Positions 2,947-26,033 of a stretch of 64,000 bases of DNA are shown one piece after another. Made by a program: the position numbers and the translations under genes. The notes beneath the pieces were generated by a model that saw nothing but the letters and a program-made list of their open reading frames with translations, did not search any database and had not been told where the DNA came from. The stretch is from Microvirga sp. 17 mud 1-3 (lineage in GTDB: Bacteria; Pseudomonadota; Alphaproteobacteria; Rhizobiales; Beijerinckiaceae), in assembly GCF_003151255.1 (NCBI RefSeq), contig NZ_CP029481.1, positions 3,100,001 to 3,164,000 of the forward strand, given 5' to 3'. The first letter of the stretch is position 1. The number at the start of each line of letters is the position of its first letter.

Positions 2947-3990
2947 TTACCGGGCCGTGGCATGCTCCATCTCTCGGGCGGCAATTTCGGCGAGAACAAG
3001 AGCCTGGTCGATACCCTCGGCCGGAGCGCCGGCTTCGACCGCCTGCACTCGCTCGATGAGGGCAGCGATCGTCGCCACAGGCAGGCCGTGACGACGACCA
3101 ATCTCGACCACGGGCCCGAGCTGGTAGGGCACCTCGGTCGGGCGGCGGCGGACCATGATGTCGCGCCAGACCCCGCTGTAGAGCTTGGTCGAACCCTTCC
3201 GGCTCGCGATGATCGCCTCGATGCAGGCATCGGCGTCCGCATCCCGACCCGTCAGGAAAGCCGCCGGGTCGAATGATTGGAACGGCATCGGCCGCACACG
3301 CTCCGCGACGGCAATTGCCAGAACCGAGCGGATGAGCCAGCGGATCAACGGTCGCAGGCGCGGCTCGGAGAGGAAGCCGACGATGGTTTCTTGCGTGATC
3401 CCTTCGGCCTTCAGCACCGTCGCCCAGGCAAGCTTGCTCCAGAGATAGCCATAGATGTTGTCGGTCAGGATCGCATCCGGCTCGAAATCCTTCAGCGTGG
3501 CATGAAGATCGACCACGCGAGGCGTGAGCGCACCATCGAGTTCTCCGACGACAACGGCACCGCGCCCGCCGAAGGTGATGCGGCCCGGCTCCTGCCAGTC
3601 GGAGCCAAAATTCACGAAAGCGCCCATTGTCCGCCTGTCGCCCGCGACTGCCGCAATCTGCGGCTCGTTCATGCCGTTCTGGCAGGACAGAACGTAGCCG
3701 TCGTCGGCGAGATGCGGCATCAGCCCATCCAGCGCCGTCGCCGTGTGCTGAGCCTTTACGGCCAGGAAGATGCGGCCATAACGGCCCTTCACCTCGCCGG
3801 GCAGCATCGCCCGGCAGCGCACCGAAAAGGCATCCACAGGACCGTCGATCTCCAATCCGCGCCGCTCGATGGCACGCACGTGATCTTCGACCAGATCGGC
3901 GAAATGGACCTCGTGTCCTGCGCGCGCCAGGAAGGCGCCGATGGTGCCGCCAATGGCTCCGGCGCCCCAGATGAGGATCGGATCGCTCAT
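2947..3990 (-). CDS. Ketopantoate reductase family protein (ApbA/PanE-like)
   Basis: The 347-residue protein opens with a Rossmann dinucleotide motif, GAGAIGGTIGAFLARAG at about residues 10-26. A central segment, LSCQNGMNEP, matches the family's CQNG loop, and the C-terminal half is the helical ApbA_C domain, with KLAWATVLKAEG carrying the expected catalytic Lys. Family members reduce 2-oxo acids to 2-hydroxy acids with NADPH; PanE acts in pantothenate synthesis. Here the gene follows a NIPSNAP gene by 10 bases on the same strand, within a catabolic island and behind a shared operator. A role on an oxo-acid intermediate of that pathway is therefore more likely than pantothenate synthesis. It is somewhat longer than typical PanE (about 300 residues). 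Confidence 0.85.
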   Translation of the reverse strand: MSDPILIWGAGAIGGTIGAFLARAGHEVHFADLVEDHVRAIERRGLEIDGPVDAFSVRCRAMLPGEVKGRYGRIFLAVKAQHTATALDGLMPHLADDGYVLSCQNGMNEPQIAAVAGDRRTMGAFVNFGSDWQEPGRITFGGRGAVVVGELDGALTPRVVDLHATLKDFEPDAILTDNIYGYLWSKLAWATVLKAEGITQETIVGFLSEPRLRPLIRWLIRSVLAIAVAERVRPMPFQSFDPAAFLTGRDADADACIEAIIASRKGSTKLYSGVWRDIMVRRRPTEVPYQLGPVVEIGRRHGLPVATIAALIERVQAVEAGAPAEGIDQALVLAEIAAREMEHATAR

Positions 3991-4000
3991 TCCTGATCTC

Positions 4001-4615
4001 CTATTGCAGCGGCGAGCACGGCAGCGGCAGGCAGATCATTGCCTGCATCGGCGGCGGCAGCGATCCCGGGAAGGCGTTTGGCGGCCAAATGCCCGCCTTG
4101 ACCGCCTCGGAGCGAATCCGCAGCCGTTCGTCGAAACTTGAATAGGGCCAGAGGTGGGTGAAACGTGGGGGTCCGTCGAGCGCAGTTCCGGCGGCAAGGA
4201 CCGGCGACATCTCGGCTCGGGCCGGCAGCTTACGCTTCCAGGCTTCCATCAGAACCGGCAGCGTCCCAACGCGAAGATCGTAAGTCCGCAACTCGTAGCA
4301 GGGACCAAAGCGCCCCGCCGGCACCGGGTCAATCCAGGAAAAGGGCAGATAGGCCTCGGCGCTGTAGCCGGTCATCAGGCTTTCGCAAAAGAACGGGTCG
4401 GTCGCCATAGCTAGTTGCCGCCGCTCGGCCATGAACTCCATGTCCGTCACGTAGCCGCGCATCAGCACGATCCGGTTCAGCGTTCCGACCTCAGTCGCCC
4501 AGCAACCGAGCATGCGGCCCCCTGCGGCACCTTTCGCGATGTACTCCGCCAGCCTCTCGGACGCTTCGGCATGATGTCGGGCAGGGACGCTCAGAAAGAC
4601 ATACTCATGGATCAT
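4001..4615 (-). CDS. NIPSNAP family protein
   Basis: This 204-residue soluble protein contains two ferredoxin-like alpha-beta barrel repeats typical of NIPSNAP proteins. The second begins at CYELRTYDLRVGTLPVLMEAW, the family signature, and ends with FTHLWPYSSFDERLRIR. No signal peptide or membrane segment is seen. NIPSNAP and related dimeric alpha-beta barrel proteins often sit in aromatic or amide catabolic operons; their enzymatic role is mostly undefined. It is the first gene of the minus-strand pair with the ketopantoate-reductase-like gene and is divergent from the MFS transporter, with a regulon operator between them. Confidence 0.82.
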   Translation of the reverse strand: MIHEYVFLSVPARHHAEASERLAEYIAKGAAGGRMLGCWATEVGTLNRIVLMRGYVTDMEFMAERRQLAMATDPFFCESLMTGYSAEAYLPFSWIDPVPAGRFGPCYELRTYDLRVGTLPVLMEAWKRKLPARAEMSPVLAAGTALDGPPRFTHLWPYSSFDERLRIRSEAVKAGIWPPNAFPGSLPPPMQAMICLPLPCSPLQ

Positions 4616-4686
4616 CGCGACCAGCCCACTACTAAGATCAAAATCTGCAAAAACTTGTCATTGTTATTTGGATACGTCAATGTACA

Positions 4687-4698
4687 TTTGTATGCAAA
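4687..4698. promoter_or_regulatory. Operator site A of the GntR regulon (TTTGTATGCAAA)
   Basis: The near-palindrome TTTGTATGCAAA lies in the 140-base divergent region between the NIPSNAP gene and the MFS transporter. It shares the ATTTGTATNC core with the sites at 13950, 17267, 19941 and 23177. It could control both divergent genes. The assignment rests on the shared motif only. Confidence 0.5.
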
Positions 4699-4755
4699 GA
4701 GCCGAAGCGGCGGCCCTCCCCACCCTTCAACCGCGCCTGTTCAACGGAAAAACCC

Positions 4756-6249
4756 ATGACATCAGACCTGGCATCGAAACCGGATGAGTCGCGCCGGCTG
4801 TTCCTGCGGGTCTTCCCATCAATCATGCTGCCGATGTTCATCGCGATTTCGGACCAGACGCTGGTCGCGACCGCCTTGCCGGCCATCGCGGCGGATCTCG
4901 GACAGGTAACGCTGATCACCTGGATCGTCGTCGCGTTCCTGATGATGAACAGCCTGGCCGCACCAGTCTATGGCCGCTTCGGCGACTTGATCGGACGGCG
5001 GCAGATGATGCTGATCGCGCTGACATTCGTCATCCTGGGAGCGTCGATCGTCATCACGGCCACGAACGTCCATGTCATCATTTTCGGACGCGCCATTCAG
5101 GGGCTCGGCGGCGGGGGGCTCATGAGCCTGAGCCAAGCCCTGATCGGTCAAATGGTCCCGCTGCGAAAGCGCGGCAGCTATCAAGGCTATCTGGCGGCCG
5201 TCAATGCCACGGCGACCGTTGCGGGACCGATGCTCGGAGGCCTTCTGACGCAACAGTTCGGTTGGCGCATCGCCTTGGCACTGACGATCCCGCTGGCCCT
5301 GATCGCGCTGGTGCTCACATTACGACTGCCGAAGGTGCCGAGCCGTGGTTCGGTTGCCAATTTCGATGCTCCAGGCCTGATCTTCTTCGCCGCAACGGTG
5401 GTTCTTCTCCTGCTCGCCGTTCAGCAACTTGAGGGAATAGCGCGGGGCGGCTCCCCGTTCCTCATGCTGCTCCTGGTCTGCGGCGCCGTCGCTACCTTGA
5501 CCCTGCTTGCAAGACGCGAAAAGCGGGCCGCAAGCCCGCTTTTTCCCCTGCCCGTCCTGTCGCATCCAGCGATCTGGCGCAGCGCCTGTTTCGCGGCCTG
5601 CCATGGGGCGACCTATGTCTCCCTCGTCGCCATCACACCGCTCTATCTCATCGCTGCGCGTGGTCTCAATGCCAACATGGTCGGCTTCCTGCTTCTCACG
5701 TTAACGATGGGCGTCGGCGTCTCGTCGATGATCACCGGTCATCTGGTCAGCCGGACCGGGCGCACGATGGTGTTCCCTTCGATCGGCGTGACCGTCCTGG
5801 CAGCGCTCCTGCTGGTCTTCGCCTGGCGTTCGCCGACCTTGAACACATGGCAACTGCCGATGTTCTATTTCGCGATCTCCCTGTGCATCGGCACGGTCAT
5901 GGGGGTTCTGCAGGTGACGGTGCAGTACGTCGCTGGACCGGAGAACCTCGGCGTGGCGGCGTCCGCTGTCCAGTTCTCGCGCACGCTCGGCGCCTCCCTG
6001 GGCACCTCGCTTGTCGGCGCCGTCATCTTCATTTCGCTACAAGCAGGGGACGGGCGCGCGGCCGAAGCCTTCGGGATGGCCCTGCGTGGTGCGATGGAGC
6101 TGCCCGCCAGCGAGGCGCTGCAGATCCGCGGTGAAATGCTGGCCGCCTTCCGCCCCGGCTTCCTCACCGTCGCGGCCTTTGCGGTGCTTGGATGCCTGAT
6201 GGGGTGGTCGAACCCGGTTCGCCGTATGACCGCCGAACCGAGTGAATGA
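4756..6249 (+). CDS. MFS transporter, DHA2 (14-TM, EmrB/QacA-type) family
   Basis: A 497-residue integral membrane protein. The loop 2-3 motif is visible as GRFGDLIGRRQMM, the first helix carries the DQTLVATALPAIAADL pattern of the DHA2 family, and GPMLGGLLTQQFGWR matches motif C. The length suits the 14-helix subfamily. Family members export drugs or metabolites by proton antiport; some DHA2-like proteins in catabolic clusters act in uptake or efflux of pathway intermediates. It is divergent from the NIPSNAP operon behind operator site A and abuts the convergent M20 gene with no gap. Direction of transport and substrate are not evident. Confidence 0.9.
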   Translation: MTSDLASKPDESRRLFLRVFPSIMLPMFIAISDQTLVATALPAIAADLGQVTLITWIVVAFLMMNSLAAPVYGRFGDLIGRRQMMLIALTFVILGASIVITATNVHVIIFGRAIQGLGGGGLMSLSQALIGQMVPLRKRGSYQGYLAAVNATATVAGPMLGGLLTQQFGWRIALALTIPLALIALVLTLRLPKVPSRGSVANFDAPGLIFFAATVVLLLLAVQQLEGIARGGSPFLMLLLVCGAVATLTLLARREKRAASPLFPLPVLSHPAIWRSACFAACHGATYVSLVAITPLYLIAARGLNANMVGFLLLTLTMGVGVSSMITGHLVSRTGRTMVFPSIGVTVLAALLLVFAWRSPTLNTWQLPMFYFAISLCIGTVMGVLQVTVQYVAGPENLGVAASAVQFSRTLGASLGTSLVGAVIFISLQAGDGRAAEAFGMALRGAMELPASEALQIRGEMLAAFRPGFLTVAAFAVLGCLMGWSNPVRRMTAEPSE

Positions 6250-7398
6250 TCAGGAGAGCGTCTGCATCAGCCGCTCGAGCAGCAATGCCCTGTGGGGAAT
6301 GGTCGAGACGACCAGACGTTCGCTGTGGCTGTGGCTGCTGCCCTGCCCGTCGACGCCAAGACCGTCCAAGGTCGGCGCATAGCTGGCCGTGAAATTGCCG
6401 TCGCTGCAACCGCCAGTCTGCACATCATCGAGCTGGAATCCGTACGTCGCAGCAAGCCCCCGTGCGGTCTCGAACAGGTCCGCGATGCCGGCAAGCTTTT
6501 CATAAGGTGGCCGGTTGAGCCCGCCCGTGACGGTGATGGTGCAATCAGGATCGTACGGCTTGAGGTTCAGCACTTTGGCGACCGCCGCCTCGGCCACGGC
6601 CGGGTTCGGCACGCGCATATCGACCTCTGCCTTACACTCATAGGCAACGACGTTAGGCCGGGTGCCTCCGCTGACGACGCCGACATTCACGGTCAGACCG
6701 CTCTCGTAGTCGGTCATATTTTCCAGATCGAGGATCTGGCGCGCCATTTCCTTGATCGCACTGCGCCCATGGACATGCCGGGAGCCGGCATGAGCAGCAC
6801 GTCCGTGAATCGTGATGTCGAACCGCGCCGTTCCCTTGCGAGCCGTCACGCAACGACCGCCGTCACGCGCTGGCTCAGTCACGAGGACATATTTGGCGCG
6901 CTTGGCCTCCTCCTCGATCCGCGCCCGCGATGTGAGACTGCCGATCTCTTCGTCCGAGACATAAAGATGGCGGATCGGCAAGGGCGTGCGGTTGCCTCGG
7001 GCAATCAGCTCCCGCAAGGCCGCAAAAGCCAGGTACGCTCCCCCTTTCATGTCGGAAATGCCGGGCCCATAAGCGAGATCGCCTTCGACCCGGAACGGCA
7101 GGACACTGGTCAATGTCCCCTCCGCATGGACCGTATCGTAGTGGCTCAGAATGAGGATCCCCTTCTCGTCTTCCTCTCCCCAAGGGGATTGCACGAAGAC
7201 ATGGTCTCCACAGCCATCGCGGCCCGGAATTCGCTCGACCCGGGCACCGGCAGCGCTTGCATCGGCCTCGACCTTATCGGCCATCCGGTTCACCAGATCG
7301 GCGTTCAACGAGGGGCTTTCGATCTCGACCCAGGATCGGATCCCTTCCAGCATCTTCTCGGGCATGTATCGGGCCAAGGCGGCTGTATCGTCGCTCAT
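6250..7398 (-). CDS. M20 family metallopeptidase (glutamate carboxypeptidase/CPG2-like)
   Basis: The 382-residue zinc amidohydrolase shows the M20 signatures: SHYDTVHAEG (zinc His and adjacent Asp), GPGISDMKGG (bridging Asp), YVSDEEIGS (catalytic Glu and zinc Glu), TEPARDG and a C-terminal GQGSSHSHSER (final zinc His). The dimerisation domain sits between, with IHGRAAHAGS. Relatives such as carboxypeptidase G2 cleave amide bonds next to a free carboxylate such as glutamate. No signal peptide is seen, so it acts in the cytoplasm. It is the last gene of the operon headed by the ABC binding protein, with a good AGGAGG site before its start, and probably works on the imported compound. Confidence 0.92.
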   Translation of the reverse strand: MSDDTAALARYMPEKMLEGIRSWVEIESPSLNADLVNRMADKVEADASAAGARVERIPGRDGCGDHVFVQSPWGEEDEKGILILSHYDTVHAEGTLTSVLPFRVEGDLAYGPGISDMKGGAYLAFAALRELIARGNRTPLPIRHLYVSDEEIGSLTSRARIEEEAKRAKYVLVTEPARDGGRCVTARKGTARFDITIHGRAAHAGSRHVHGRSAIKEMARQILDLENMTDYESGLTVNVGVVSGGTRPNVVAYECKAEVDMRVPNPAVAEAAVAKVLNLKPYDPDCTITVTGGLNRPPYEKLAGIADLFETARGLAATYGFQLDDVQTGGCSDGNFTASYAPTLDGLGVDGQGSSHSHSERLVVSTIPHRALLLERLMQTLS

Positions 7399-7427
7399 TC
7401 AGAACCTCCTGCAAGTGATCTTCACGC

Positions 7428-8180
7428 TCAGAGCGAACCGCCGTCGATCGACAGCACCTGCCCCGTGACATATTTCGACAGATCGGAGGACAGCCAGAAG
7501 ACGCCATTGGCGATGTCTTCAGCCTCGCCCAGGCGGCGCAACGCGGTTTGGGCGAGCTTGGCCTGGCGCTTCTCCGGAGTGTATCCCTCCCAGCGGCGCA
7601 CCTTGGCCTCGTCGGTCAGCACCAGGCCCGGCGCAACCGAATTCACCCTGATGCCATGCGGGCCGAGCTCGACGGCAAGCTGCCGGGTCAGGCCGACCAG
7701 CGCATGCTTGGATGCGCAGTAGCCCTGAACTCCGGTGAGCGAGGGCTTCAAACCTGCGCCCGAGCTGATGTTGATGATCGCTCCCCGGCCGTTGCGCTTC
7801 ATTCCTGCCGCGGCCGCGCGGCTCGTCACGAAGGAGGCATGGATGTTGACGTTGAAGAGGCGGTCCCACGACTCGTCCTCGACTTCATCAATGGGCTGAA
7901 ACGGCGTGCCGAGCGATCCGCCGGCGTTGTTCACCAGAACGTCGATCGGTCCACCGGACTGCGCCTCGACCTCAGCGATCCAAGCTGCCGCCGCCTTGCG
8001 GTCGGACAGATCGACGATGGCCGTCGTCAAACCGGGAAGCGCGGAAATCTGTTTGAGCCCCTCGGGCTGGATGTCGCAGCCCCAGACCCGGGCGCCCATG
8101 CGGGAGAAACCTTCGGCAATAGCGCGGCCGAAGCCGGATGCGGCGCCCGTGAGCGCCACAGTCTTGTTCTCGAAATTCAT
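7428..8180 (-). CDS. SDR family NAD(P)-dependent oxidoreductase
   Basis: A classical short-chain dehydrogenase of 250 residues. The cofactor motif is TGAASGFGRAIAEG near the N-terminus, NNAGG follows, and the catalytic Ser and YxxxK appear in ISSGAG and GYCASKHAL. The C-terminus has the usual GQVLSIDGG. An Asp at the end of the second strand (GCDIQ) favours NAD(H). The start at 8180 has an AGGAG-type site upstream; upstream in-frame codons overlap the permease gene. It lies 23 bases after the ABC permease and 29 before the M20 gene, so it is part of the import/catabolism operon. It probably oxidises an alcohol intermediate. Confidence 0.93.
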   Translation of the reverse strand: MNFENKTVALTGAASGFGRAIAEGFSRMGARVWGCDIQPEGLKQISALPGLTTAIVDLSDRKAAAAWIAEVEAQSGGPIDVLVNNAGGSLGTPFQPIDEVEDESWDRLFNVNIHASFVTSRAAAAGMKRNGRGAIINISSGAGLKPSLTGVQGYCASKHALVGLTRQLAVELGPHGIRVNSVAPGLVLTDEAKVRRWEGYTPEKRQAKLAQTALRRLGEAEDIANGVFWLSSDLSKYVTGQVLSIDGGSL

Positions 8181-8203
8181 CCTTCTCTTCTCCTTTGAGA
8201 CGG

Positions 8204-9097
8204 TCAGCCACGAGACTTCGGATCGAGAATGTCGCGCAGGCCATCTCCGAGCAGGTTGAAGGACAGCACGGTCATGAAGACGAAGAGGCCGGGGAAGATC
8301 GACAGGAAGGGGGCCGTCGTCAGATAGCGCTGAGCTTCCTGCAGCATGGCGCCCCACTCCGGTGTCGGCGGCTGCGCCCCGAGTCCAAGGAAGCTCAGGA
8401 CGGCCGCGGCCAGAATGGCCTCACCCAATGAGAGCGTGGAATAGACCACCAGTGGGCCGAGGATGTTCGGCAGGATTTCCCGCAGGATGATCCGCCGGTC
8501 CGTCGCTCCGATACAGCGAGCCGCCTCCACATATTGCAGCCTCGCGGTCGCGATGGTTGCAGCGCGGGCCACACGGGCGAAGCGCGGAATGCGGACGATG
8601 CCGATTGCAATGATGCCGTTCTGCAGGGACGGTCCCAGCACGGCGGCGATGAGGACGGCCAGCAGCACGTAAGGCATGGCCATTACGACATCCATCAACC
8701 GCATGAAGGCATTGTCGAGCCAGCCCCGATAGTAGCCCGCCAGAATACCCAGCGTTACGCCGAAGACGAGCGAGATGCTGACCGCAAGGAAGCCTACGCT
8801 CAACGAGATGCGGCTGCCCAGGATCACCCGTGAGAACACGTCACGGCCGATCTGGTCGATGCCGAAAGGATGCTCCCAGCTCGGCCCCACCAGCACACCG
8901 CTGGTGAACTCATCGGCCTCATAGGGCGCAATCAGAGGCGCAAAGATCGCAATCAGGGCCAGCAGGATGAGAAAGGCCAGCCCGAACATGGCGCTCTTGC
9001 GTTCAGCCAGGCGCGAGAAGGCAATACGCAGCCGGGTCGTGAACGTCTTCCCGCCTGCGCTCGGGACCGGCACGGCGTCAATGGTCTGATGTGTCAT
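8204..9097 (-). CDS. ABC transporter permease, DppC/OppC family
   Basis: A 297-residue inner-membrane permease of the peptide/nickel class. An OppC_N region (residues 20-75) with one helix precedes the BPD_transp_1 domain. The EAA loop is visible as EAARCIGATDRRIILREILPN cut short, which contacts the ATPase. The start overlaps the stop of the DppB gene as ATGA, so the two permeases are translationally coupled. It is the second membrane subunit of the importer encoded at 8.2-13.8 kb. Confidence 0.95.
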   Translation of the reverse strand: MTHQTIDAVPVPSAGGKTFTTRLRIAFSRLAERKSAMFGLAFLILLALIAIFAPLIAPYEADEFTSGVLVGPSWEHPFGIDQIGRDVFSRVILGSRISLSVGFLAVSISLVFGVTLGILAGYYRGWLDNAFMRLMDVVMAMPYVLLAVLIAAVLGPSLQNGIIAIGIVRIPRFARVARAATIATARLQYVEAARCIGATDRRIILREILPNILGPLVVYSTLSLGEAILAAAVLSFLGLGAQPPTPEWGAMLQEAQRYLTTAPFLSIFPGLFVFMTVLSFNLLGDGLRDILDPKSRG

Positions 9098-10107
9098 TGC
9101 CGCACCCTCGGATCAATGAAGCCATAGGAAATGTCGACGATCAGGTTCACGAAGACGATGATGATCGCGTAGATGATGATTGCTCCCTGAACGACCGGAT
9201 AGTCGTTTGCCATGATGGCCTGCATCATGTGGCGGCCGAGCCCCGGCCAGGAGAACAGCGTTTCGGTCACGATGGACCCGCCGAGATAGACGCCGATCTC
9301 AAGCCCGATGATGGTGACCACGGGGATCAGGGCGTTGCGCATCACGTGCCTGGCAACGACCATGGGGAAGCTGAGTCCTCGCGCGAGGCCTGCATTCACA
9401 TAGTCTTCGTTGATGACCTCCAGCACGCTCGCCCGGGTCGTCCGCGCGATCAGTGCTGCCGGCGCCGTTGCCAGCGTGACGGCCGGGAGGACCATGTGCG
9501 AGAGCACATCGACGAAGGCCTTTCCGTTCAGCGTCAGGATGCTGTCCAGGAGACTGAATCCGGTCACCCGCGTCAGAACAGTACTGTAGGAGAGCATGCC
9601 GCCGGTCGGGAAGATATTGAAATAGACCGAGAAGACGACGATGAGGATCATTCCGAACCAGAACACGGGCAGCGAGATGCCCGAGAGGGTCAGGAACATG
9701 GTCGCAGAGTCGAACCAGCTTCCTTTCCGGATCGCCGCGATCGTGCCGGCAATAACTCCGAAGATCGAGCCGAGCAGCGTCGCAAGAATGGCGAGTTCCG
9801 CCGTGGCCTTCAGCCGGTCGAGCAGGATCGGCAGGACCGGATCGCGGCTCTGCAGGCTTTGTCCCAGATCTCCATGGAACACGTTGCCCAGCCAGGAGAG
9901 ATATTGGACGTAATAGGGCCGGTTGAGGCCCATCTCTTCGCGCAGCCGGTCAACGGCTTCCTGCGAGATGCTCTCTCCGCCCATCATGGTAATGACCGGA
10001 TCCCCCGGGATCGCCCGCATGAAGGCGAAGACGAGGATCGACAGAAGCAGAAGAACCACGAGACTGTTCAACAGCCTCGATAGGACCGTAGAAAAGACGC
10101 GCTTCAT
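9094..10107 (-). CDS. ABC transporter permease, DppB/OppB family
   Basis: A 337-residue permease with six predicted helices and a DppB-type N-terminus containing RAIPGDPV. The EAA-type loop follows RTTRASVLEVINEDYVNAG, the family signature. It overlaps its neighbours on both sides through ATGA junctions (start at the DppF stop, stop at the DppC start). It pairs with the DppC-type subunit to form the channel of the oligopeptide-type importer. Confidence 0.95.
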   Translation of the reverse strand: MKRVFSTVLSRLLNSLVVLLLLSILVFAFMRAIPGDPVITMMGGESISQEAVDRLREEMGLNRPYYVQYLSWLGNVFHGDLGQSLQSRDPVLPILLDRLKATAELAILATLLGSIFGVIAGTIAAIRKGSWFDSATMFLTLSGISLPVFWFGMILIVVFSVYFNIFPTGGMLSYSTVLTRVTGFSLLDSILTLNGKAFVDVLSHMVLPAVTLATAPAALIARTTRASVLEVINEDYVNAGLARGLSFPMVVARHVMRNALIPVVTIIGLEIGVYLGGSIVTETLFSWPGLGRHMMQAIMANDYPVVQGAIIIYAIIIVFVNLIVDISYGFIDPRVRQ

Positions 10108-11195
10108 GCTAAGGCTCCGTTCGGTGCAGGGGCGATCGGCGCCTCATTGTAGAGATGGCAGCGCACTTCCCGGTCGTCGACCATTCGTGGTGCAGGCAGG
10201 ACCGTATCGCAAATCGCTCCTATGCGTTTGGTGCAACGGGTATGGAACGGACACCCTTTCGGAACCCGGACGTTCGAAGGGATCTCACCCTCAAGTGGAG
10301 CACGGTCTGTCTGCGCACCGGCGACAGGCTTCGGCGTGGCCGCCATGAGGGCCGCCGTGTAAGGATGAAGCGGATTGGCGAAGATGCGCTCGACCGGGCC
10401 GGTCTCTACGATACGCCCCAGGTACATCACCGCAAGACGGTCGACGAGATATCCGATCAGGTTCAGATCGTGCGAGATGAAGAGGCAACCAAGCCGCAGG
10501 TGACGGCGAAGATCTTCGATCAACGCGATGATCTTAGCCTGCACCGAAACGTCCAGAGCGGAGGTCGGCTCATCCAGGACGAGGAACTTCGGATCCAGAA
10601 TCAGCGCTCGCGCAATGGCGATCCGCTGCCGCTGCCCACCGGAGAATTCGTGCGGGTAACGGTCGAAATGAGCCTCCGTCAGCCCTACCCGCTCGAGCAT
10701 CTGAACCGCCAGCCTGCGCCGTTCGGCCGAGGTGCCGCGATTGTGGACGACCAGCGACTCCATGATGATGCTGCCGGCGGTCCGGCGCGGATTCAGGGAG
10801 TTGTACGGATCCTGGAAGACCATCTGCACCTGTTCGCGCAATTCGAGCGCGGGCAGATTGTCGATTGGAGTGCCGCTTAAGGTTACGCTCCCGCCGGTCG
10901 CCGGCTGGAGCCGCACGAATGCGCGCGCAAGCGTGCTCTTCCCGCACCCCGATTCTCCGGCGATGCCGACCATCTCTCCACGGCGCACCGAAAGATTGAC
11001 GCTTTGCACGGCACGGACGGCCGGTATCTCGCGCTGCCTGTTCAAAGGCCAGATGCCCTGGCCGCGGATAGGAAAGCTGACCGAGACGTTACGCGCCTCG
11101 AGAACCTCGTCATCTTGCATTGTCGCCGCAGCCGGTGCTGCGGAGGTCTGAATGATCATTTTGCGCCCTCGATGATCTTCTGTTTCTCCGCTCAT
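10104..11195 (-). CDS. Oligopeptide ABC transporter ATP-binding protein, DppF/OppF type
   Basis: The 363-residue ATPase has Walker A GESGCGKST, Q-loop VFQDPYNSLNPR, signature LSGGQRQRIAIARAL within HEFSGGQRQR, Walker B FLVLDEPTSALD and the H-loop ISHDL. The C-terminal oligo_HPY region carries GCPFHTRCTKRIGAIC, whose Cys residues bind an iron-sulfur cluster in some relatives. The gene is coupled by ATGA overlaps to DppD upstream and DppB downstream. An internal Met at MIIQTSAAP could also serve as start, but the coupled start is preferred. Confidence 0.95.
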   Translation of the reverse strand: MSGETEDHRGRKMIIQTSAAPAAATMQDDEVLEARNVSVSFPIRGQGIWPLNRQREIPAVRAVQSVNLSVRRGEMVGIAGESGCGKSTLARAFVRLQPATGGSVTLSGTPIDNLPALELREQVQMVFQDPYNSLNPRRTAGSIIMESLVVHNRGTSAERRRLAVQMLERVGLTEAHFDRYPHEFSGGQRQRIAIARALILDPKFLVLDEPTSALDVSVQAKIIALIEDLRRHLRLGCLFISHDLNLIGYLVDRLAVMYLGRIVETGPVERIFANPLHPYTAALMAATPKPVAGAQTDRAPLEGEIPSNVRVPKGCPFHTRCTKRIGAICDTVLPAPRMVDDREVRCHLYNEAPIAPAPNGALA

Positions 11196-15841: not shown

Positions 15842-15842
15842 C

Positions 15843-17259: not shown

Positions 17260-17266
17260 GCATCTG

Positions 17267-17280
17267 AATGTATACAAATG
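17267..17280. promoter_or_regulatory. Operator site C of the GntR regulon (AATGTATACAAATG)
   Basis: The site contains the perfect palindrome TGTATACA at 17269-17276 and, read on the minus strand, the shared core ATTTGTATAC. It lies between the divergent enolase-superfamily and M28 genes and overlaps an in-frame ATG at 17278. That argues for the downstream ATG at 17344 as the true M28 start. A repressor bound here would cover the predicted start of transcription. Confidence 0.6.
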
Positions 17281-17343
17281 AATTCAATGCAAGCTGTCAA
17301 GCCGCTTACACTGCCTTCCAGAACCGCGACAAAGGAAATTGGG

Positions 17344-19029: not shown

Positions 19030-19146
19030 CCTACTCGCCCGGCCTTTACTGACAAGTCTCTTTTGGAGAGTTGAGGCTCCATGTACAAGTGCTTCTAACC
19101 CATGGAGCGAGGACCGGTTAGGTCTGACGAGGGAGACTTGAATAGA

Positions 19147-19845
19147 ATGGCCGGACGCGCGGTAAACTCGAGCATCCCAGGGCAGTCCCGCTCTGATTAT
19201 GTCTATGATCAGATCCGCGCCGGTCTACGGCGCGGAGAAATAAAGCCGGGGCAGCGGCTGCTGGAGGCCGACCTGGCCCAGCAACTCAACGTGAGCCGCA
19301 CCCCGATCCGCGATGCCATCCGCCGTCTGATCTCGGAAGGTCTTGTCACAATTGCCCCCTCCCGTGGGGTCATGGTGACCGAACTCAGCAAACAGCAGGT
19401 GCGAGAGATCTATGCTCTACGCGAAGTCCTGGAAGGTGCTGCCGCACGACTTGCCGCACAGTTCGCCACCAAGGATGAGCTTGCCATCCTGCGGCAAGCC
19501 TTGGAATCCTCGGCAAACATCGACGAGCCTGCTCGTTATGCCGACTTTAATGCGGTTTTTCACCAGGCCATCCATGATGCGGCGCATAACAAGTATCTCG
19601 CCCTGGCACTGAACCAGCTTGCGAACTCCCTTGCGCTTCTGCCGGGGACGACCTTCCAGGCACCTGGGCGCCTTGCGACCGCAAAGCAGGAGCATATGGC
19701 GATGCTGGAGGCCATCGAAAGCCGGGACCAGGACCTGGCGGAGCTTCTGGCCCGCAAGCACATCCGCCACGCCCACATGACACGGGCGAACATGATGTTC
19801 GACTCCTCCTGGCAGGACAGCAGGATAGCTGCGACCGACGACTGA
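19147..19845 (+). CDS. GntR family transcriptional regulator, FCD domain; likely regulator of the island
   Basis: A 232-residue regulator with a winged helix at about residues 10-75 (LNVSRTPIRDAIRRLISEG as recognition segment) and an FCD ligand domain. The latter shows the Asp-x3-His motif (ADFNAVFHQAIHD) and later His residues (QEHMAMLEAI, RKHIRHAH) that bind a metal and often a carboxylate ligand. The start at 19147 follows GAGGGAGA with about ten bases of spacing. It sits in the middle of the catabolic island between the M28-1 gene and the dehydrogenase gene. FCD proteins of the VanR/FadR type commonly bind TTGTATACAA-like operators, exactly the motif repeated through this island, so it is the natural candidate repressor. 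Confidence 0.9.
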   Translation: MAGRAVNSSIPGQSRSDYVYDQIRAGLRRGEIKPGQRLLEADLAQQLNVSRTPIRDAIRRLISEGLVTIAPSRGVMVTELSKQQVREIYALREVLEGAAARLAAQFATKDELAILRQALESSANIDEPARYADFNAVFHQAIHDAAHNKYLALALNQLANSLALLPGTTFQAPGRLATAKQEHMAMLEAIESRDQDLAELLARKHIRHAHMTRANMMFDSSWQDSRIAATDD

Positions 19846-19860
19846 GCCGCCCCTGGCGGC
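19846..19860 (+). terminator. Weak hairpin directly after the GntR gene
   Basis: GCCGCC and GGCGGC form a 6-bp stem with a 3-base loop right after the stop codon. There is no T run, so termination is doubtful. Confidence 0.25.
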
Positions 19861-19909
19861 GACCTGCCACCTCCCTGAGCAATAACTTCCCGAAGGTAAC
19901 AGAAAGAGG

Positions 19910-19939
19910 TTGCCTGCGCAGACCCATCGTGGCTATTCT
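19910..19939 (+). promoter_or_regulatory. Putative sigma-70 promoter of the dehydrogenase-M28-2 operon
   Basis: TTGCCT (19910-19915) and TATTCT (19934-19939) are separated by 18 bases. Operator site D follows at once, over the expected transcription start. The arrangement matches sites C and E. Confidence 0.35.
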
Positions 19940-19940
19940 T

Positions 19941-19957
19941 CGTATACATTTGTATCC
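19941..19957. promoter_or_regulatory. Operator site D of the GntR regulon (CGTATACATTTGTATCC)
   Basis: The site has GTATACATTTGTATC, with two GTAT half-sites, and shares the ATTTGTATNC core. It lies about 50 bases before the start of the dehydrogenase gene and about 100 bases after the stop of the candidate regulator. Confidence 0.55.
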
Positions 19958-20002
19958 ATCTGCGGACACAATGAGCAAGACGAACTCCGAAGGGGCGATG
20001 AG

Positions 20003-21004
20003 ATGAAGGCTGCCTGGTACGAACGAAACGGTCCTGCACGCGACGTCATGATCGTGGGGGAGATGGAGATACCGGAGCCGGGCCCTAATCAGGTTCTTGT
20101 CCGCATCCATGCCTCGGGCGCCAATCCACATGACGTGAAGGCGCGCTCCGGATGGACCGGGAAGGCCCTTTATGCCGACAAGGTTGTGCCTCATGCGGAT
20201 GGAGCCGGCTTTATCGAGAAGGTTGGCCCCGGCGTTCCTGCCTCTCGCGTAGGCCAGCGCGTCTGGACATTCCGGGCAGACGCCGCCCGTCCTGGCGGCG
20301 GCACTGCGGCCGAATTCGCCGTGGTGAATGCCGCCCATGCGGTGCCGCTTCCGGACAACATCCCTCTCAGCACCGGCGCCTCTTTAGGCGTGCCCGCCAT
20401 TACGGCCCACACGGCCGTCCTGCGCGATGGGACTGTCGCCGGCCAATGGGTTCTGGTGCATGCGGGCGCCGGAGCCGTCGGTCAGTTTGCGATCCAGTTC
20501 GCTCGCTGGAGCGGGGCGCGCGTGATCGCTTCCGCCAGCACACCCGAAAAGGCCGACATCGCCCGTGCATGTGGGGCCGATGAGGTCCTGGATTATCGGG
20601 ACCCGGATTTCGTCGCGAAGGTACGCGACATGACGGATGGTTTGGGTGTGGACCGGATCGTCGAAGTCGATCTGGGCGAGAACCTCACTGCAGATATCGG
20701 CGCGATCCGCATGAATGGCGTCATTGCCAGCTATTCCTCCACGCGGGTTCCCAAGCCGGAAGTGGATTACTACGCAGTCGCCGCCAAAGGCATCACGCTC
20801 CATACCGTGCAGGGTCGGCACCTGTCCGAGGAGCGTCGGGCCGCTGCAGTGCGCGATATCTCCGCTTTGCTGTCGCGCGGTCTTCTGAAGGCTCCCGAAC
20901 CCGCCGTGTTCGCCTTCGACGATGTCGCCTCAGCCCACGAGATGATCGAGGCCGGCGCCGGCATCCGCAAGGTGATGCTCGCTGTGCGTTCGCTCGACGC
21001 CTGA
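20003..21004 (+). CDS. NADPH:quinone reductase-like medium-chain dehydrogenase (zinc-independent MDR)
   Basis: The 333-residue protein starts at MKAAWYERNG behind GAAGGGGCGATGAG. It has the GroES-like N-terminal domain (PGPNQVLVRIHASGANPHDVK) and a Rossmann domain with the HAGAGAVGQFAIQFARW motif of quinone oxidoreductases. The structural and catalytic zinc Cys residues of alcohol dehydrogenases are absent, which supports the quinone-reductase/enoyl-reductase branch. It is soluble. The M28-2 gene follows 32 bases later, so the two form an operon behind operator D. In the pathway it could reduce an enone or enoyl intermediate. Confidence 0.92.
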   Translation: MKAAWYERNGPARDVMIVGEMEIPEPGPNQVLVRIHASGANPHDVKARSGWTGKALYADKVVPHADGAGFIEKVGPGVPASRVGQRVWTFRADAARPGGGTAAEFAVVNAAHAVPLPDNIPLSTGASLGVPAITAHTAVLRDGTVAGQWVLVHAGAGAVGQFAIQFARWSGARVIASASTPEKADIARACGADEVLDYRDPDFVAKVRDMTDGLGVDRIVEVDLGENLTADIGAIRMNGVIASYSSTRVPKPEVDYYAVAAKGITLHTVQGRHLSEERRAAAVRDISALLSRGLLKAPEPAVFAFDDVASAHEMIEAGAGIRKVMLAVRSLDA

Positions 21005-21036
21005 TCTCCCGCCCGAGAAACTACAGGAACACGACC

Positions 21037-22803
21037 ATGAATGAAGCCCTCCAGGCCGCCGCGCGCGATCTGATCTCGCCTGAAGCCCTGACCGAAACCG
21101 TAGCCTACCTCTGCTCGCTCGGAGAGAAGGTTTCGGGCTCGGACGAAGAGGCAAAGGCCTGCGACTACATTACCGGCAAGTTGCGCGAATATGGCTATGA
21201 GCCGGTCGTGCACCGCTTCGACTCCTACCTGTCCTATCCACGCTCGGCCGCTCTCCACGTCGGCGGAGCCGATGGCTACGACCTGCCCTGCGTCGGCGTT
21301 GCTTTCGGCACCTCCACGCCGGAAGGCGGCTTCACGGCCGAGGTCGTCCTCGTCGGTTCGGGCAGCGAAGCCGAATACGAGGGCAAAGATGTTGCCGGCA
21401 AGATCGTCCTCGTCACCAAGCTTCCTTCGCCCGGCAATTCGGTCGTCGCCGCCGCCAAGGGGGCCAAGGGCATGATCTGCATGTCCGCCGGCAAGCAACG
21501 CCACAAGATGACCATCACGCCGGTCTGGGGAACGCCTGAATTCGACCAGGCCAAGGACATTCCGCGCCTTCATCTCGTTTCGATCAGCAAGACTGATGGC
21601 GACCGCATCCTTGCAGACCTGGCCAAGGGCCGCGTCGAAGCCACCATCGTCACCGATGTGTTCGAAGGCTGGCGCAGCGTTCGCCTGCCGGTCGCGGAAA
21701 TCAAGGGCGAGGAGCCGCTGTTCTCGCTGGTGGGCGCCCATTACTGCTCATGGTTTGACGGCTCGACCGACAACATCACCGGCGATGCCTGCGTGCTGGA
21801 ACTCGCGCGCGTCCTGAAGCAGTTCGAGGGCAAGCTTCGGCACGGGCTGCGCTTCGCCTGGTGGCCAGGACACTCCCATGCCCGCTATTCGGGCTCCACC
21901 TGGTACGCCGACACCTTCTTCCACGATCTGCACGAGAATGCGATCACCTACTTCAACATCGACAGCCCTGGCGTGAAGGGCGCGACAGTCTACGTCCCGC
22001 GGCACCAGATGGCGGAACTGTCGGCCTATAACGAGAAGACGACCAAGGATGTCACGGGCTGGACCACGCTTAATTCGTCGAATGCTCAGCTCGCATTGGG
22101 CAAGCGCAAGGACAAGTACGTCAGCCCGACCCGCCCCTCGCGCGCGGGCGACCAGTCCTTCTGGGGCGTCGGCGTCACGTCCCTGGCCGTCTACTCGATG
22201 CTGACCCCCGAAGACGAGAACCGCGACCTGAATGTCGGCGGCTCGGGTGGCGCCTGGTGGTGGCATTCTGAGCACGAAACCTTCGACAAATATTCGCCGG
22301 AGGTGCTCAGCCAGGATGCAAGGCTTTACGCGACGATCCTCCTGGGTCTTTCGACTGCCGATGTGTTGCCCTTCGACCCAGCGGCGATCACGGGCGATTA
22401 CCTGGACAGCCTGCGGGAATTCGAGGAGGCAGCGGGAGAGCATCTGCCGATCGCCGAACTCGCCGATGAAGTACGCTCCCTGAAGGCAAGGCTTGAAAAG
22501 CTGCGTGCCAGCGCTGGGAGCCGCGCGGCCGATAAGAGCGAAACCGCCCGCCTGAACCGGCTCTTCCTGCGCGTTTCCAGGCTGCTGAACCCGGTGCTTT
22601 ACCAGTCCGGCTCCGACTTCCATCACGATCCGGCGCTGGGCAGCCGTGCCCTGCCCTCCCTGAGCCCGGCGCTGACGCTCGGCAAACTGTCACCCGACAG
22701 CGACGCCTACCGTTTCACGCGCGTCGGCCTGCTTCGTCGGATGAATCGGATCCGCCACCAGCTTCGTGAAACGAGCCGCCTGCTGGCAGAAAACGGGCAT
22801 TGA
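21037..22803 (+). CDS. M28 family peptidase-like protein 2, paralogue of the 17344 gene
   Basis: A 588-residue paralogue of the M28-1 protein: both share GKDVAGKIV, a PVWG segment, DGSTDN or GVMDNG, a GHSHxRYSGSxWYAD motif, QSFWGVGV or ESFWGVGI, and a WWWH segment. The metal Asp (FNIDSPG) and last His (WWWHSEHETFDK) are kept. The Glu-Glu pair is absent (WWPGHSHARYSGS). The His-x-Asp motif is altered to HYC in GAHYCSWFDG, so this copy deviates further than its paralogue. No signal peptide is seen. It ends the dehydrogenase operon, and a strong hairpin follows its stop. Catalytic activity should not be assumed. Confidence 0.85.
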   Translation: MNEALQAAARDLISPEALTETVAYLCSLGEKVSGSDEEAKACDYITGKLREYGYEPVVHRFDSYLSYPRSAALHVGGADGYDLPCVGVAFGTSTPEGGFTAEVVLVGSGSEAEYEGKDVAGKIVLVTKLPSPGNSVVAAAKGAKGMICMSAGKQRHKMTITPVWGTPEFDQAKDIPRLHLVSISKTDGDRILADLAKGRVEATIVTDVFEGWRSVRLPVAEIKGEEPLFSLVGAHYCSWFDGSTDNITGDACVLELARVLKQFEGKLRHGLRFAWWPGHSHARYSGSTWYADTFFHDLHENAITYFNIDSPGVKGATVYVPRHQMAELSAYNEKTTKDVTGWTTLNSSNAQLALGKRKDKYVSPTRPSRAGDQSFWGVGVTSLAVYSMLTPEDENRDLNVGGSGGAWWWHSEHETFDKYSPEVLSQDARLYATILLGLSTADVLPFDPAAITGDYLDSLREFEEAAGEHLPIAELADEVRSLKARLEKLRASAGSRAADKSETARLNRLFLRVSRLLNPVLYQSGSDFHHDPALGSRALPSLSPALTLGKLSPDSDAYRFTRVGLLRRMNRIRHQLRETSRLLAENGH

Positions 22804-22811
22804 TCTCATCA

Positions 22812-22842
22812 CCTCTGGCCCTGCCGCTGGCAGGGCCAGAGG
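22812..22842 (+). terminator. Strong hairpin terminator after M28 peptidase gene 2
   Basis: CCTCTGGCCCTGCC (22812-22825) and its exact complement at 22829-22842 form a 14-bp stem with a 3-base loop, nine bases after the stop codon. The tail TAATTCCT is only weakly T-rich, so it may be a stabilising or partial terminator. Confidence 0.7.
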
Positions 22843-23149
22843 TAATTCCTCCAATCAGAGGAAGATCCAGTGTGAACTTCCCTCAATGGGAGGAAGTCAC
22901 GGTAGACCGCCCTCGGTAAGGGGCGGCCGGCCCGAGTACGAATGCCACACCGCGCATGGACTCGGTGCTCCCCTTCCTGCGAGCAATGGTGGTCGGGGCC
23001 TTCCAGCACGAGGAACCTGGCAGAGCGACCTGGACACTTCGCTGCCGATAGGCGCCGAAGTTTAGCCGGCCGGTTTCTCCCTATGTGAAGATCGCTTCAC
23101 CATCCGCCCCGAGAATGCGGTCAATCTGTGGGGCGCCACATAATCGGGG
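22843..23149. other. Non-coding stretch between M28-2 and tcuA with two further small hairpins
   Basis: TTCCTC and GAGGAA (22846-22863) and CTTCC and GGAAG (22877-22896) form two short stem-loops in tandem behind the terminator. Open frames across 22.8-23.07 kb on either strand have no ribosome site and no recognised family. I see no gene here. Confidence 0.45.
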
Positions 23150-23177
23150 TTGACTGGAGCAAGCTCTTGGATATTTC
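23150..23177 (+). promoter_or_regulatory. Putative sigma-70 promoter of tcuAB
   Basis: TTGACT (23150-23155) and TATTTC (23172-23177) are separated by 16 bases, with operator site E immediately downstream. The leader to the tcuA start is about 220 bases, unusually long, and no riboswitch fold was recognised in it. Confidence 0.35.
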
Positions 23178-23189
23178 TGTATACAAAGG
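23177..23189. promoter_or_regulatory. Operator site E of the GntR regulon (CTGTATACAAAGG)
   Basis: The site contains the perfect palindrome TGTATACA at 23178-23185; on the minus strand it reads CTTTGTATAC, matching the shared core. It overlaps the expected transcription start of the tcuAB operon and so ties the tricarballylate genes to the rest of the island. Confidence 0.6.
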
Positions 23190-23404
23190 TGTTCAAAGTT
23201 TAAATCATAGACCAAGGCGATACTGAGAGCGGCATACCTCACTGCTGGTGAAGAACCGAACAGACCTCATTGAGAGTGATGCACCTGGCGCCTCGTCAAC
23301 GCTGCGACGCTGTTTCCCAGCCCGCAAGCCAAGTTTGAAAAGCAGGGACCTGCTTCGGGCCGCACCAGCCGGAGCTCCGACAGCTATGCCGGAGGATTGG
23401 AGAG

Positions 23405-24889
23405 ATGAAGGTGGGAATCGCGGTCTCAAGGGACTTTCCGCAAGAGCAGACAAAAGTGGCCTTACGTTCCGAAGCGCAGGTTAAGCCCGTTCCGGTCGAG
23501 CTGACACGCAGATACGACGTCCTTGTGGTCGGCGGCGGGAACGCTGCCCTTTGCGCGGCCATCAGCGCCCGTCGCTCCGGCGCTTCCGTGCTCGTCCTCG
23601 AAGGCGCGCCGAAATTCTATCGTGGCGGCAATACCCGCCACACGCGCAATATGCGCTGTGCTCACGACGCGGCCACCGAAATCCTGACTGGCCCCTATAC
23701 GGAAGAGGAGTTCTGGGAAGACCTTCTGCGTGTGACCGGCGGGCAGACCGACGAGGAACTTGCCCGCTTCATGATCCGTGAATCCAAGGAGATTCTGAAC
23801 TGGATCGTCGAGCAGGGCGTGCGTTGGCAGCCATCGCTTGGCGGAACCCTCAGCCTCGGTCGTACGAACTCGTTTTTCCTGGGCGGCGGGCGCGCGATGC
23901 TGAATGCGCTCTACTTCACCGCGGAGCGCCTGGGCGTCGATGTCCTGTACGACGCGGAGGTCGTCGACCTGGATATTCGGGACGGTATGTTCCACTCCGC
24001 CACGGTCGCCTATGGCGGACAGCGGCATGAAGTCCACGCCGCAAGCCTGGTCGCGGCCGCCGGAGGCTTCGAGGCCAATATCGAGTGGCTGAAGCAGTAT
24101 TGGGGTGACATCGCCGAGAACTTCCTCATCCGCGGCACGCCCTATAACCGTGGCTCCGTGCTCAAGATGCTGCTCGACAAGGGCGTGCAGAAGATCGGCG
24201 ACCCCACCCAGTGCCACGCGGTGGCAATCGATGCCCGTGCGCCTAAATTCGACGGCGGCATCATCACACGGCTCGACTGCGTCGTCTTCGGCATCGTGGT
24301 GAACAAGAACGCCGAGCGCTTCTATGACGAGGGCGAGGATCTCTGGCCGAAGCGTTACGCCATCTGGGGGCGGCTCGTTGCGGCCCAGCCCGACCAGATC
24401 GCCTATATCATCTTCGACGCTCCATCCCTCGAGATGTTCATGCCGTCGCTCTACCCGCCCATCAAGGCGGACAGCATCGCGGAACTCGCCGGGAAACTCG
24501 GCCTCGACCCACAAGCACTCGAAACCACGGTCGAAACGTTCAACGGGGCTGTGCGCCCTGGCACCTTCGACCACACAATCCTGGACGATTGCCGGACGGA
24601 AGGGCTCACCCCGCCGAAAAGTCACTGGGCCCGGCCGATCCGCAATGCGCCTTTCTATGCCTATCCGGTCCGTCCCGGCATCACCTTCACGTATCTGGGT
24701 ACGAGGGTGAACAAGGAGGCGCGGATGATCATGGCCGACGGGAGGCCCGCAGCCAACATGTTCGCCGCCGGGGAGATCATGGCCGGCAACGTGCTCGGCA
24801 AAGGGTATGCCGCCGGCATCGGAATGACCATCGGCAGCGTCTTTGGGCGCGTCGCCGGACGAGAGGCCGCTAAGAATGCATGCAACTAA
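23405..24889 (+). CDS. tcuA: FAD-dependent tricarballylate dehydrogenase TcuA-like
   Basis: The 494-residue flavoprotein belongs to the fumarate reductase/succinate dehydrogenase flavoprotein superfamily. The FAD motif VVGGGNAALCAAISARR lies at about residues 41-57, after an extension of about 36 residues. YRGGNTRHTRNMR, VAAAGGFEANIEWLK and a C-terminal GEIMAGNVLGKGYAAGIGM match TcuA proteins. The start has GGAGGATTGGAGAG directly before it. TcuA of Salmonella oxidises tricarballylate to cis-aconitate, passing electrons to TcuB. The tcuB gene overlaps its 3' end. No TcuC-type citrate/proton symporter is next to it, so the substrate may arise inside the cell by hydrolysis. A related polycarboxylate as true substrate is possible. 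Confidence 0.88.
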   Translation: MKVGIAVSRDFPQEQTKVALRSEAQVKPVPVELTRRYDVLVVGGGNAALCAAISARRSGASVLVLEGAPKFYRGGNTRHTRNMRCAHDAATEILTGPYTEEEFWEDLLRVTGGQTDEELARFMIRESKEILNWIVEQGVRWQPSLGGTLSLGRTNSFFLGGGRAMLNALYFTAERLGVDVLYDAEVVDLDIRDGMFHSATVAYGGQRHEVHAASLVAAAGGFEANIEWLKQYWGDIAENFLIRGTPYNRGSVLKMLLDKGVQKIGDPTQCHAVAIDARAPKFDGGIITRLDCVVFGIVVNKNAERFYDEGEDLWPKRYAIWGRLVAAQPDQIAYIIFDAPSLEMFMPSLYPPIKADSIAELAGKLGLDPQALETTVETFNGAVRPGTFDHTILDDCRTEGLTPPKSHWARPIRNAPFYAYPVRPGITFTYLGTRVNKEARMIMADGRPAANMFAAGEIMAGNVLGKGYAAGIGMTIGSVFGRVAGREAAKNACN

Positions 24890-26033
24890 AGCCCTCGAAG
24901 AAGCCGACCGTCTGATGACGGTCTGCAATTCCTGTCGCTATTGCGAAGGACTTTGCGCCGTGTTCCCGGCGATGGAACTGCGGCGCGCCTTCACGGACGG
25001 CGATCTCAATTACCTGGCCAATCTCTGCCACAGCTGCGGCGCCTGCTATACGGATTGTCAGTTCTCGCCGCCACACGAGTTCAACGTCAATGTCCCGCAG
25101 ACATTGGCGAAAGTCCGTAACGACTCCTACAAGCTTTACGTCTGGCCGCGCGCGTTGGCGCCTCTCTTCGAGCGCAACGGCCTGGCGATCAGCCTTATCG
25201 CGGCCCTCAGCGTGGGCATCTTCTTCTTCGGCCTGATGGCGTTCAACGACCCGGCCGTGATGTTCGGGGTACAGACCGGGCCGGGAGCGTTCTACCGGAT
25301 CATGTCCCACAATGCGATGGCAGGGGTGTTCGGCGCTGCGTTCTTCTATGCGATTGCGGCCCTGATCATGGGCTTTCGCATGTTCTGGCGCGACATCGGC
25401 GAAACCCGGGAGACGCTGACCAACGGCGTCTCGGTCTGGCAGGCGATGAAGGACACTATGGCTTTGCGCTATCTCGATGGCGGAGGGCCCGGATGCTTCA
25501 ACGAGGATGAGCGGCCCACCGACCGTCGCCGGCTCTACCATCACATGACGTTCTACGGTTTTTTCCTCTGCCTGGCTGCGACGAGCACGGCGACGCTCTA
25601 TCACTATCTGCTCGGCATGGAAGCGCCCTACACCTGGTATGACCTTCCCGTGATCCTTGGAACGTTTGGCGGGATTGGTCTCGTCGTCGGCCCGGCGGGT
25701 CTCATCTGGGCGAAGCTCAAGCGCGATCCGGCCCTGAGGGACGAGAACGGGCGCAGCATGGAGATGGCGTTCGTCGTGATGCTGTTCCTGGTGAGCGTCA
25801 CCGGCCTGCTGCTGCTGATTCTTCGGGCCACGCCCGCCATGGGAACGATGCTGGCGCTTCACATGGGCTTCGTGTTCGGCTTCTTCATGACCATGCCCTA
25901 CAGCAAGTTCGTCCACGGCATCTACCGGTTCGGAGCCCTTGTGCGCTACGCGAAGGAACGTCGCGCGCTTCATGAGCCGACGCCGTCGAAGGCCAAGGCT
26001 TTGTCCATCCCCGATGCCAAAGCGGGAGCTTGA
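24876..26033 (+). CDS. tcuB: Tricarballylate utilization 4Fe-4S membrane protein TcuB (CitB-like)
   Basis: A 385-residue protein that starts inside the tcuA 3' end (14-base overlap). The N-terminus has two ferredoxin-like Cys clusters, CNSCRYCEGLC and CHSCGACYTDC, followed by six or so membrane helices, with His residues such as YHHMTFYGFF and LHMGFVFGFF that may bind heme. In Salmonella, TcuB reoxidises the FADH2 of TcuA and passes electrons to the quinone pool. The pairing and order tcuA-tcuB match that system. A terminator-like hairpin lies 40 bases after the stop. Function by homology is well supported. Confidence 0.9.
   Translation: MHATKALEEADRLMTVCNSCRYCEGLCAVFPAMELRRAFTDGDLNYLANLCHSCGACYTDCQFSPPHEFNVNVPQTLAKVRNDSYKLYVWPRALAPLFERNGLAISLIAALSVGIFFFGLMAFNDPAVMFGVQTGPGAFYRIMSHNAMAGVFGAAFFYAIAALIMGFRMFWRDIGETRETLTNGVSVWQAMKDTMALRYLDGGGPGCFNEDERPTDRRRLYHHMTFYGFFLCLAATSTATLYHYLLGMEAPYTWYDLPVILGTFGGIGLVVGPAGLIWAKLKRDPALRDENGRSMEMAFVVMLFLVSVTGLLLLILRATPAMGTMLALHMGFVFGFFMTMPYSKFVHGIYRFGALVRYAKERRALHEPTPSKAKALSIPDAKAGA

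Follow-up and report, generated by a model that had tools for sequence, protein, structure and literature searches.

Two gene modules of separate origin, possibly under one switch, at the tcuAB locus of Microvirga sp. 17 mud 1-3

Do neighboring genes for uptake, hydrolysis, and tricarballylate oxidation serve one pathway, or have they only come to lie side by side? The question is raised by positions 2947–26033 in a stretch of 64,000 bases (the window) from Microvirga sp. 17 mud 1-3, which is part of one contig of 4,403,107 bases. Herein, 18 genes encode proteins of the families ApbA, NIPSNAP, MFS, M20, SDR, OppC, OppB, OppF, OppD, OppA, CocE/NonD, MR_MLE, M28, GntR-FCD, MDR, M28 with a PA domain, TcuA, and TcuB. 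A preliminary description had named these families correctly, as was found when the open reading frames of the window were assigned by Pfam and NCBIfam profile scans, and had taken all 18 genes for a single catabolic island. The comparison with other genomes separates them instead into module A, comprising 16 genes and bounded by ApbA on the left and the second M28 gene on the right (2947–22803), and module B, the tcuAB pair (approximately 23143–26033). The modules appear to be of separate origin, and the chances that they also share one switch are judged to be roughly even.

Two modules and the seam between them

The enolase-superfamily (MR/MLE) protein of module A was searched for in 397 genomes of the family, own genome included, and a match at an E value of 1e-60 or better was obtained in one other genome (88% identity), whereas plasmids gave none at this threshold. 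This genome, G687, belongs to another genus, probably Bosea, and its copy of the module has the full series of 16 genes in unchanged order, at rounded identities of 88–94%. The match reported for its MLE gene (L143) contains one internal TAG, although the frame is listed as open over 419 amino acids. In blastn, G687 aligns with the window at 85–87% over positions 2949–22824, ending 21 bases past the stop codon of the second M28 gene. The 58 kb around module A that were compared in G687 contain neither TcuA nor TcuB, and in G058, a congener of G687 (genus g12), TcuA does not exceed the cut-off of the survey described next.

For TcuA, 101 genomes including the own genome were surveyed against the model cut-off. 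It is exceeded in 21 of them, own genome included, and nine of the others belong to the same genus, with TcuA proteins that are 88–91% identical. The blastn similarity to these nine same-genus loci is confined to 23143–26035, with the tcuB stop codon at 26033. Between the two blocks lies a seam (22825–23142) that is matched by neither G687 nor the same-genus tcu loci. Judged from these alignments, the break in similarity from 22824 to approximately 23143 marks two modules of different ancestry. Because similarity to the relatives breaks here, and since G687 has the whole of module A in its 58 kb but no tcuAB, one island of 18 genes is not supported. Among 2601–3000, 22781–23200, and 25991–26400, no common direct or inverted repeat of at least 11 bases was found that would mark the edges of a mobile element.

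Besides the window, 24 TcuA loci (L085–L104 and L133–L136) were compared by tblastn (E 1e-8, more than 60 bits), some of them short (L099, 5.9 kb; L101, 4.8 kb; L102, 10.6 kb). An M28 or M20 match occurs in none of the 24. The preliminary description had proposed this very comparison of TcuA neighborhoods as a check on its island; the M28 and M20 members of the shared set were not recovered, with one metagenome contig of 41,220 bases, discussed below, as a possible exception. Among loci in genome contigs that bear a relative of the first M28 protein (M28a), module A is present in one of 16.

A more distant form of module A is found in G101, a freshwater (lake) metagenome-assembled genome whose completeness is not given (locus L069). 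Thirteen genes are kept at 47–78% identity. Order and strands are retained for NIPSNAP, MFS, M20, SDR, the five Opp genes, CocE, MLE, and M28a; the dehydrogenase adjoins M28a but lies on the other strand, and the contig runs out beyond NIPSNAP. A relative of the second M28 protein (M28b; 66%) resides on a different contig together with TctC, CoA-ligase, acyl-CoA dehydrogenase, and Asp/Glu racemase genes. In this genome of unstated completeness, the best TcuA score stays below the cut-off (260.7 versus 372.55).

Module B in turn looks like a clipped tcu locus, since in eight of the nine same-genus loci the gene after tcuB encodes a TctC receptor. In addition, a divergent GntR gene stands beside tcuA in six of the nine; of the remaining three, the contig of L087 starts there, and L085 and L092 show none. 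That TcuC is missing from the locus was seen correctly before: the 21 open reading frames scanned, including the one at 26141, contain no TctC match, and the MFS transporter is efflux-like. The suggestion formerly drawn from this absence, namely that the acid may be released inside the cell, does not follow from it, given the eight same-genus loci with a TctC receptor. Three TctC genes are located elsewhere in the own genome. A TctC receptor in the region of G000:C1:1176233 (L130, from 8233) lies far from tcuAB and is 64% identical to the tcu-linked TctC of one same-genus locus; it may be a displaced tcu partner or a paralogue.

A palindrome and a regulator in common

An operator-like palindrome occurs in both modules. 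A search pattern, TNTGTATACANA, was taken from the tcuA promoter and fixed before other sites were seen. With one mismatch allowed, it occurs three times in the 64 kb (at 4687, 17267, and 23176), as compared with a mean of 0.05 and a maximum of 1 in 100 shuffles. Two sites fall into divergent promoters of module A: TTTGTATGCAAA (4687–4698) between NIPSNAP and MFS, and AATGTATACAAA (17267–17278) between MLE and M28a. The third, TCTGTATACAAA (23176–23187), precedes tcuA. Noncoding DNA makes up 6.4% of 2947–26033, with the M28a start taken as 17311. The listed M28a frame (17278–19029, plus strand) would bring its start codon into contact with the site at 17267. The true start is probably at approximately 17332–17344, because the Bosea-type sequence of G687 lacks a start codon at the listed position and the N terminus of a relative, P0007, reads MEIRMPQT.

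Such sites recur in the same-genus tcu loci and in G687. Upstream of tcuA, a TTTGTATACAAA site with at most two mismatches is present in all nine same-genus loci, seven times in perfect form, and three more two-mismatch sites lie elsewhere in these loci. The 58 kb of G687 contain two TTTGTATACAAA sites, both in the intergenic regions that correspond to those of the window. Control DNA from the genus (241 kb) contains no such palindrome, and only one of 28 M28a or CocE loci has a site (L127).

The GntR/FCD regulator of module A (19102–19845, plus strand) resembles the regulators of tcu loci. It is 42–45% identical to six same-genus tcu GntRs and 34–43% to nine GntRs beside or near tcuA in other genera, as compared with 18–28% for eight GntRs beside M28 or CocE genes. 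For the ligand-binding FCD domain, identity to the same-genus tcu GntRs rises to 48–51%. The GntR tree leaves the exact place of the module A regulator open.

A plasmid search with this regulator gave 164 records, of which 60 were listed and 15 loci examined. One of these, on a Paracoccus yeei plasmid, has TcuA near GntR and was already known from its coordinates. Five of the 14 others encode a TcuA of 60–61% identity within 8 kb (Halomonas, Roseivivax, Rhizobium leguminosarum, Pseudorhodobacter, and Gemmobacter), and one encodes a TcuA-like protein of 37%. By coordinates, TcuA also lies within 8 kb of GntR in Methylobacterium nodulans, Thalassospira, Pseudosulfitobacter, and three Shinella records among the matches listed, and approximately 100 kb from it in Palleronia. 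Hence, this GntR subfamily is tied to tcuAB often but not always. On plasmids of Sagittula and Ponticoccus (L165 and L167), three consecutive MmgE/PrpD genes stand beside a GntR related to the module A regulator.

Since the same likely control site is present in both modules, they may be switched on together. The joint control assumed earlier thereby gains indirect support from the palindrome common to tcuA and two module A promoters and from the kinship of the GntR proteins; the coupling itself is possible.

Proteins of the two modules and systems they resemble

Both M28 proteins of module A, M28a and M28b (21037–22803, plus strand, with a PA domain), are recognized by Pfam (68.5 and 38.4 bits versus 21.3) and are predicted by modeling to adopt a fold like that of glutamate carboxypeptidase II. 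In M28 enzymes, a Glu-Glu pair provides the catalytic base and a metal ligand. Alignment to 2ek8 and 4twe places His302-Ser303 at this position, an exchange that affects both window proteins and is invariant in 42 of 42 sequences. Also unlike glutamate carboxypeptidase II–type proteins, they have no signal or membrane anchor as judged by eye. The variant is widespread: a search for this M28 subfamily gave 3330 matches, and 120 of 122 sequences checked carry the GHS pattern. In the bacterial and haloarchaeal records examined, its neighbors are importers, M20 enzymes, or dehydrogenases. At L033, L034, L082, and L083, M28a relatives stand beside PotA-type ABC, SDR, and ApbA genes; SDR and ApbA genes recur near this M28 type.

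The nearest solved structures to the MLE protein (15843–16985, minus strand; Pfam and structure comparison) are dipeptide epimerases and N-acylamino acid racemases. Asp-x-Asp is the specificity motif of dipeptide epimerases. It is found in 1jpm and 3jva, whereas the window protein has Glu-x-Asn and its best match, 2p88, has Glu-x-Thr.

The CocE/NonD hydrolase (14024–15841, minus strand) scores 345.1 bits with TIGR00976 (cut-off 66.3). It precedes, in the direction of the minus strand, the Opp-type importer OppC, OppB, OppF, OppD, and OppA (8204–13842, minus strand), for which the full complement stated in the preliminary description was confirmed by Pfam: two permeases, two ATPases, and one family-5 binding protein. 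In CocE-Opp sets of the same order, CocE adjoins the Opp set at six of six further loci, one of them in the own genome. Their CocE proteins are just 43–50% identical, however, and the M28, MLE, and M20 proteins of module A were not found in those stretches. A CocE paralogue of 50–51% identity in the own genome (G000:C1:3025702-3027519; L123) is located beside an Opp set of its own.

The remaining enzymes of module A are an M20 peptidase-like hydrolase (6250–7398, minus strand), an SDR dehydrogenase (7428–8177, minus strand), a zinc-type MDR dehydrogenase (19910–21004, plus strand), and, at the left end, an ApbA/PanE-type reductase (2947–3990, minus strand), where the G687 similarity starts at 2949. 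The SDR start was moved in from the listed 8357 to approximately 8177 because some 60 residues of the listed frame, which overlaps oppC, precede the domain. A NIPSNAP-domain protein (4001–4615, minus strand) and the DHA2 efflux-like MFS transporter (4756–6249, plus strand) complete the module; the top-scoring models for the latter are drug-efflux types (best 25 of 60 matches). The hydrolases all look cytoplasmic by eye.

Module B consists of tcuA (23405–24889, plus strand), encoding a flavin adenine dinucleotide–dependent tricarballylate dehydrogenase, and tcuB (24843–26033, plus strand), encoding a 4Fe-4S electron-transfer protein. In the TcuABC system of Salmonella enterica, TcuA is reported to turn tricarballylate into cis-aconitate and TcuB to pass on its electrons, according to titles cited in PMC10468695 and PMC8593673. 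The window proteins likewise exceed curated cut-offs: TcuA scores 722.9 versus 369 (NF006130) and 600.3 versus 372.55 (TIGR02485), and TcuB 467.2 versus 246.6 (TIGR02484); a second TcuB model (NF011607) is not reached (476 versus 524), and Pfam gives no match for TcuB. Unlike the Salmonella system, the window locus contains no tcuC, in place of which its same-genus relatives encode a TctC receptor and a GntR regulator. On a Shinella plasmid, a TcuA relative (80%) has as neighbors an aconitase gene (acnA) and a gene for a PrpF-domain protein, in keeping with aconitate chemistry. The own genome encodes a second TcuA/CobZ-type flavoprotein (G000:C1:241607-243073; L038), which scores 291.5 bits against the cut-off of 372.55.

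That tcuAB represents a split CobZ, with both proteins acting in cobalamin synthesis, is very improbable, and this candidate was rejected. The short name of the TcuA model (CobZ_N-term), the next scanned reading frame to the right, which matches an alpha-ribazole phosphatase model below its cut-off, and the lack of CobG in the genome would suit such a role. The genome gives no match to cobJ either, however, the 10 reading frames at 27336–40391 include no cob gene, and both the TctC gene beside tcuB in the genus and the acnA and PrpF-domain genes next to the 80% relative point away from cobalamin. An Rfam scan of the window at the gathering threshold revealed no cobalamin riboswitch, and within 22600–27500 there are just three weak matches, all to unrelated families. 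Farther right, 26653–36646 (minus strand) contains phosphatase genes (His_Phos and phosphoglycolate phosphatase), a 2-aminoethylphosphonate-type ABC importer, an NtrC-type regulator, and a histidine kinase with PgtB (phosphoglycerate transport) as best model; these genes may serve the uptake of a phosphorylated acid.

The fumonisin cluster of Sphingopyxis (fumD and fumI) had been invoked as a parallel. It agrees with the window in having an esterase-type hydrolase and, by name, a link to tricarballylate. It differs in its transporter type, and the 18 window proteins include no aminotransferase, whereas passages on fumonisin degradation name a carboxylesterase and an aminotransferase and not tcu genes (PMC4843849). 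The literature searches made here yielded nothing that joins tcu genes with the gene set of module A.

How the modules may be related

On the evidence above, the following course of events is proposed. The Opp-type transporter would import a small peptide-, amide-, or ester-like compound, which CocE, M20, and the two GHS-type M28 proteins would cleave in the cytoplasm. An intermediate would be epimerized by the MLE protein, and its oxidation state would be shifted by the SDR, MDR, and ApbA enzymes. Module B would be a tcuAB pair as found in the genus, cut off from the genes for its receptor and regulator, and would oxidize tricarballylate or a close analogue to cis-aconitate. The GntR of module A would bind both palindromes within the module and probably the one in front of tcuA as well, such that a carboxylate would likely induce both modules together.

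Several observations weigh against this proposal. G101 has neither a GntR gene nor a palindrome at its module A locus; therefore, neither belongs to the oldest core of the module. Palindromes of this kind are common among FCD regulators. In other genera, 11 of 15 TcuA loci are without the palindrome, and the rest have it in the GntR/tcuA intergenic region (L096 and L100), at GntR (L095), or elsewhere (L094). Eight of the 14 plasmid GntR loci have no TcuA, two of these having an Opp set instead. At L085 and L092, the site is retained without a neighboring GntR; loss of the regulator is therefore not special to the window. A clean division into two modules is also blurred by L103, where an Opp set precedes a TcuAB of 39% identity, and by matches in the same stretch as TcuAB to MLE (29–31%; L133), to OppF (L135), and to OppF, OppD, and a 26% CocE (L136).

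A second linkage of the modules may exist. For P0007, related to M28a (85%), and P0285, related to TcuA (81%), a contig of 41,220 bases from the same metagenome source is given in each case, and hence one contig may carry both. The chance of any such coincidence is approximately 0.018 under a crude null (contigs of at least 10 kb, first ten of the MLE list), and the same comparison recovers known same-contig M28a/MLE pairs (67,359 and 16,783). If true, this contig would be the best evidence for a coupling of the modules.

The modules might be merely adjacent, with no control or substrate in common and with two regulators that happen to use a common FCD operator type. The separate origins, the absence of tcuAB beside module A in G687 and G101, the lack of M28 and M20 genes at the 24 other TcuA loci, and the congener of G687 with no TcuA above the cut-off all agree with such a chance arrangement. 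It is nonetheless considered somewhat unlikely, given that the palindrome marks these promoters and is missing from the control DNA, that the regulator is akin to tcu GntRs, and that a second linkage may exist. At the other extreme, shared control would extend to shared metabolism: module A would free a tricarballylate-like acid in the cell, TcuAB would oxidize it, and the adjacency would have been selected. This stronger form of the proposal could draw on the adjacency itself, the common palindrome, the FCD domain identity to same-genus tcu GntRs, the possible second linkage, and the cytoplasmic appearance of the hydrolases. Nothing ties these hydrolases to a tricarboxylate, however, and module A is without tcuAB in the compared DNA of two other genomes, one of them (G101, of unstated completeness) with no TcuA above the cut-off; a single pathway is thus regarded as unlikely. 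That TcuA acts on a product of module A is held to be unlikely.

The preferred reading remains that of two modules of separate origin under what may be one switch. A bolder version, for which there is little expectation, would have a tcu-type GntR regulon in which the His-Ser variant M28 proteins, CocE, M20, and MLE dismantle an imported peptide-like tricarboxylate conjugate, the freed acid passing via TcuAB to cis-aconitate. If true, a conjugated tricarboxylate would have a new catabolic route, and a large M28 subfamily would gain a function. Already at this stage, the tempting guess of one pathway gives way to two modules that a seam sets visibly apart and that one operator probably connects, which makes their joint control directly testable. 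Moreover, a widespread M28 subfamily devoid of the usual Glu-Glu pair is brought to notice.

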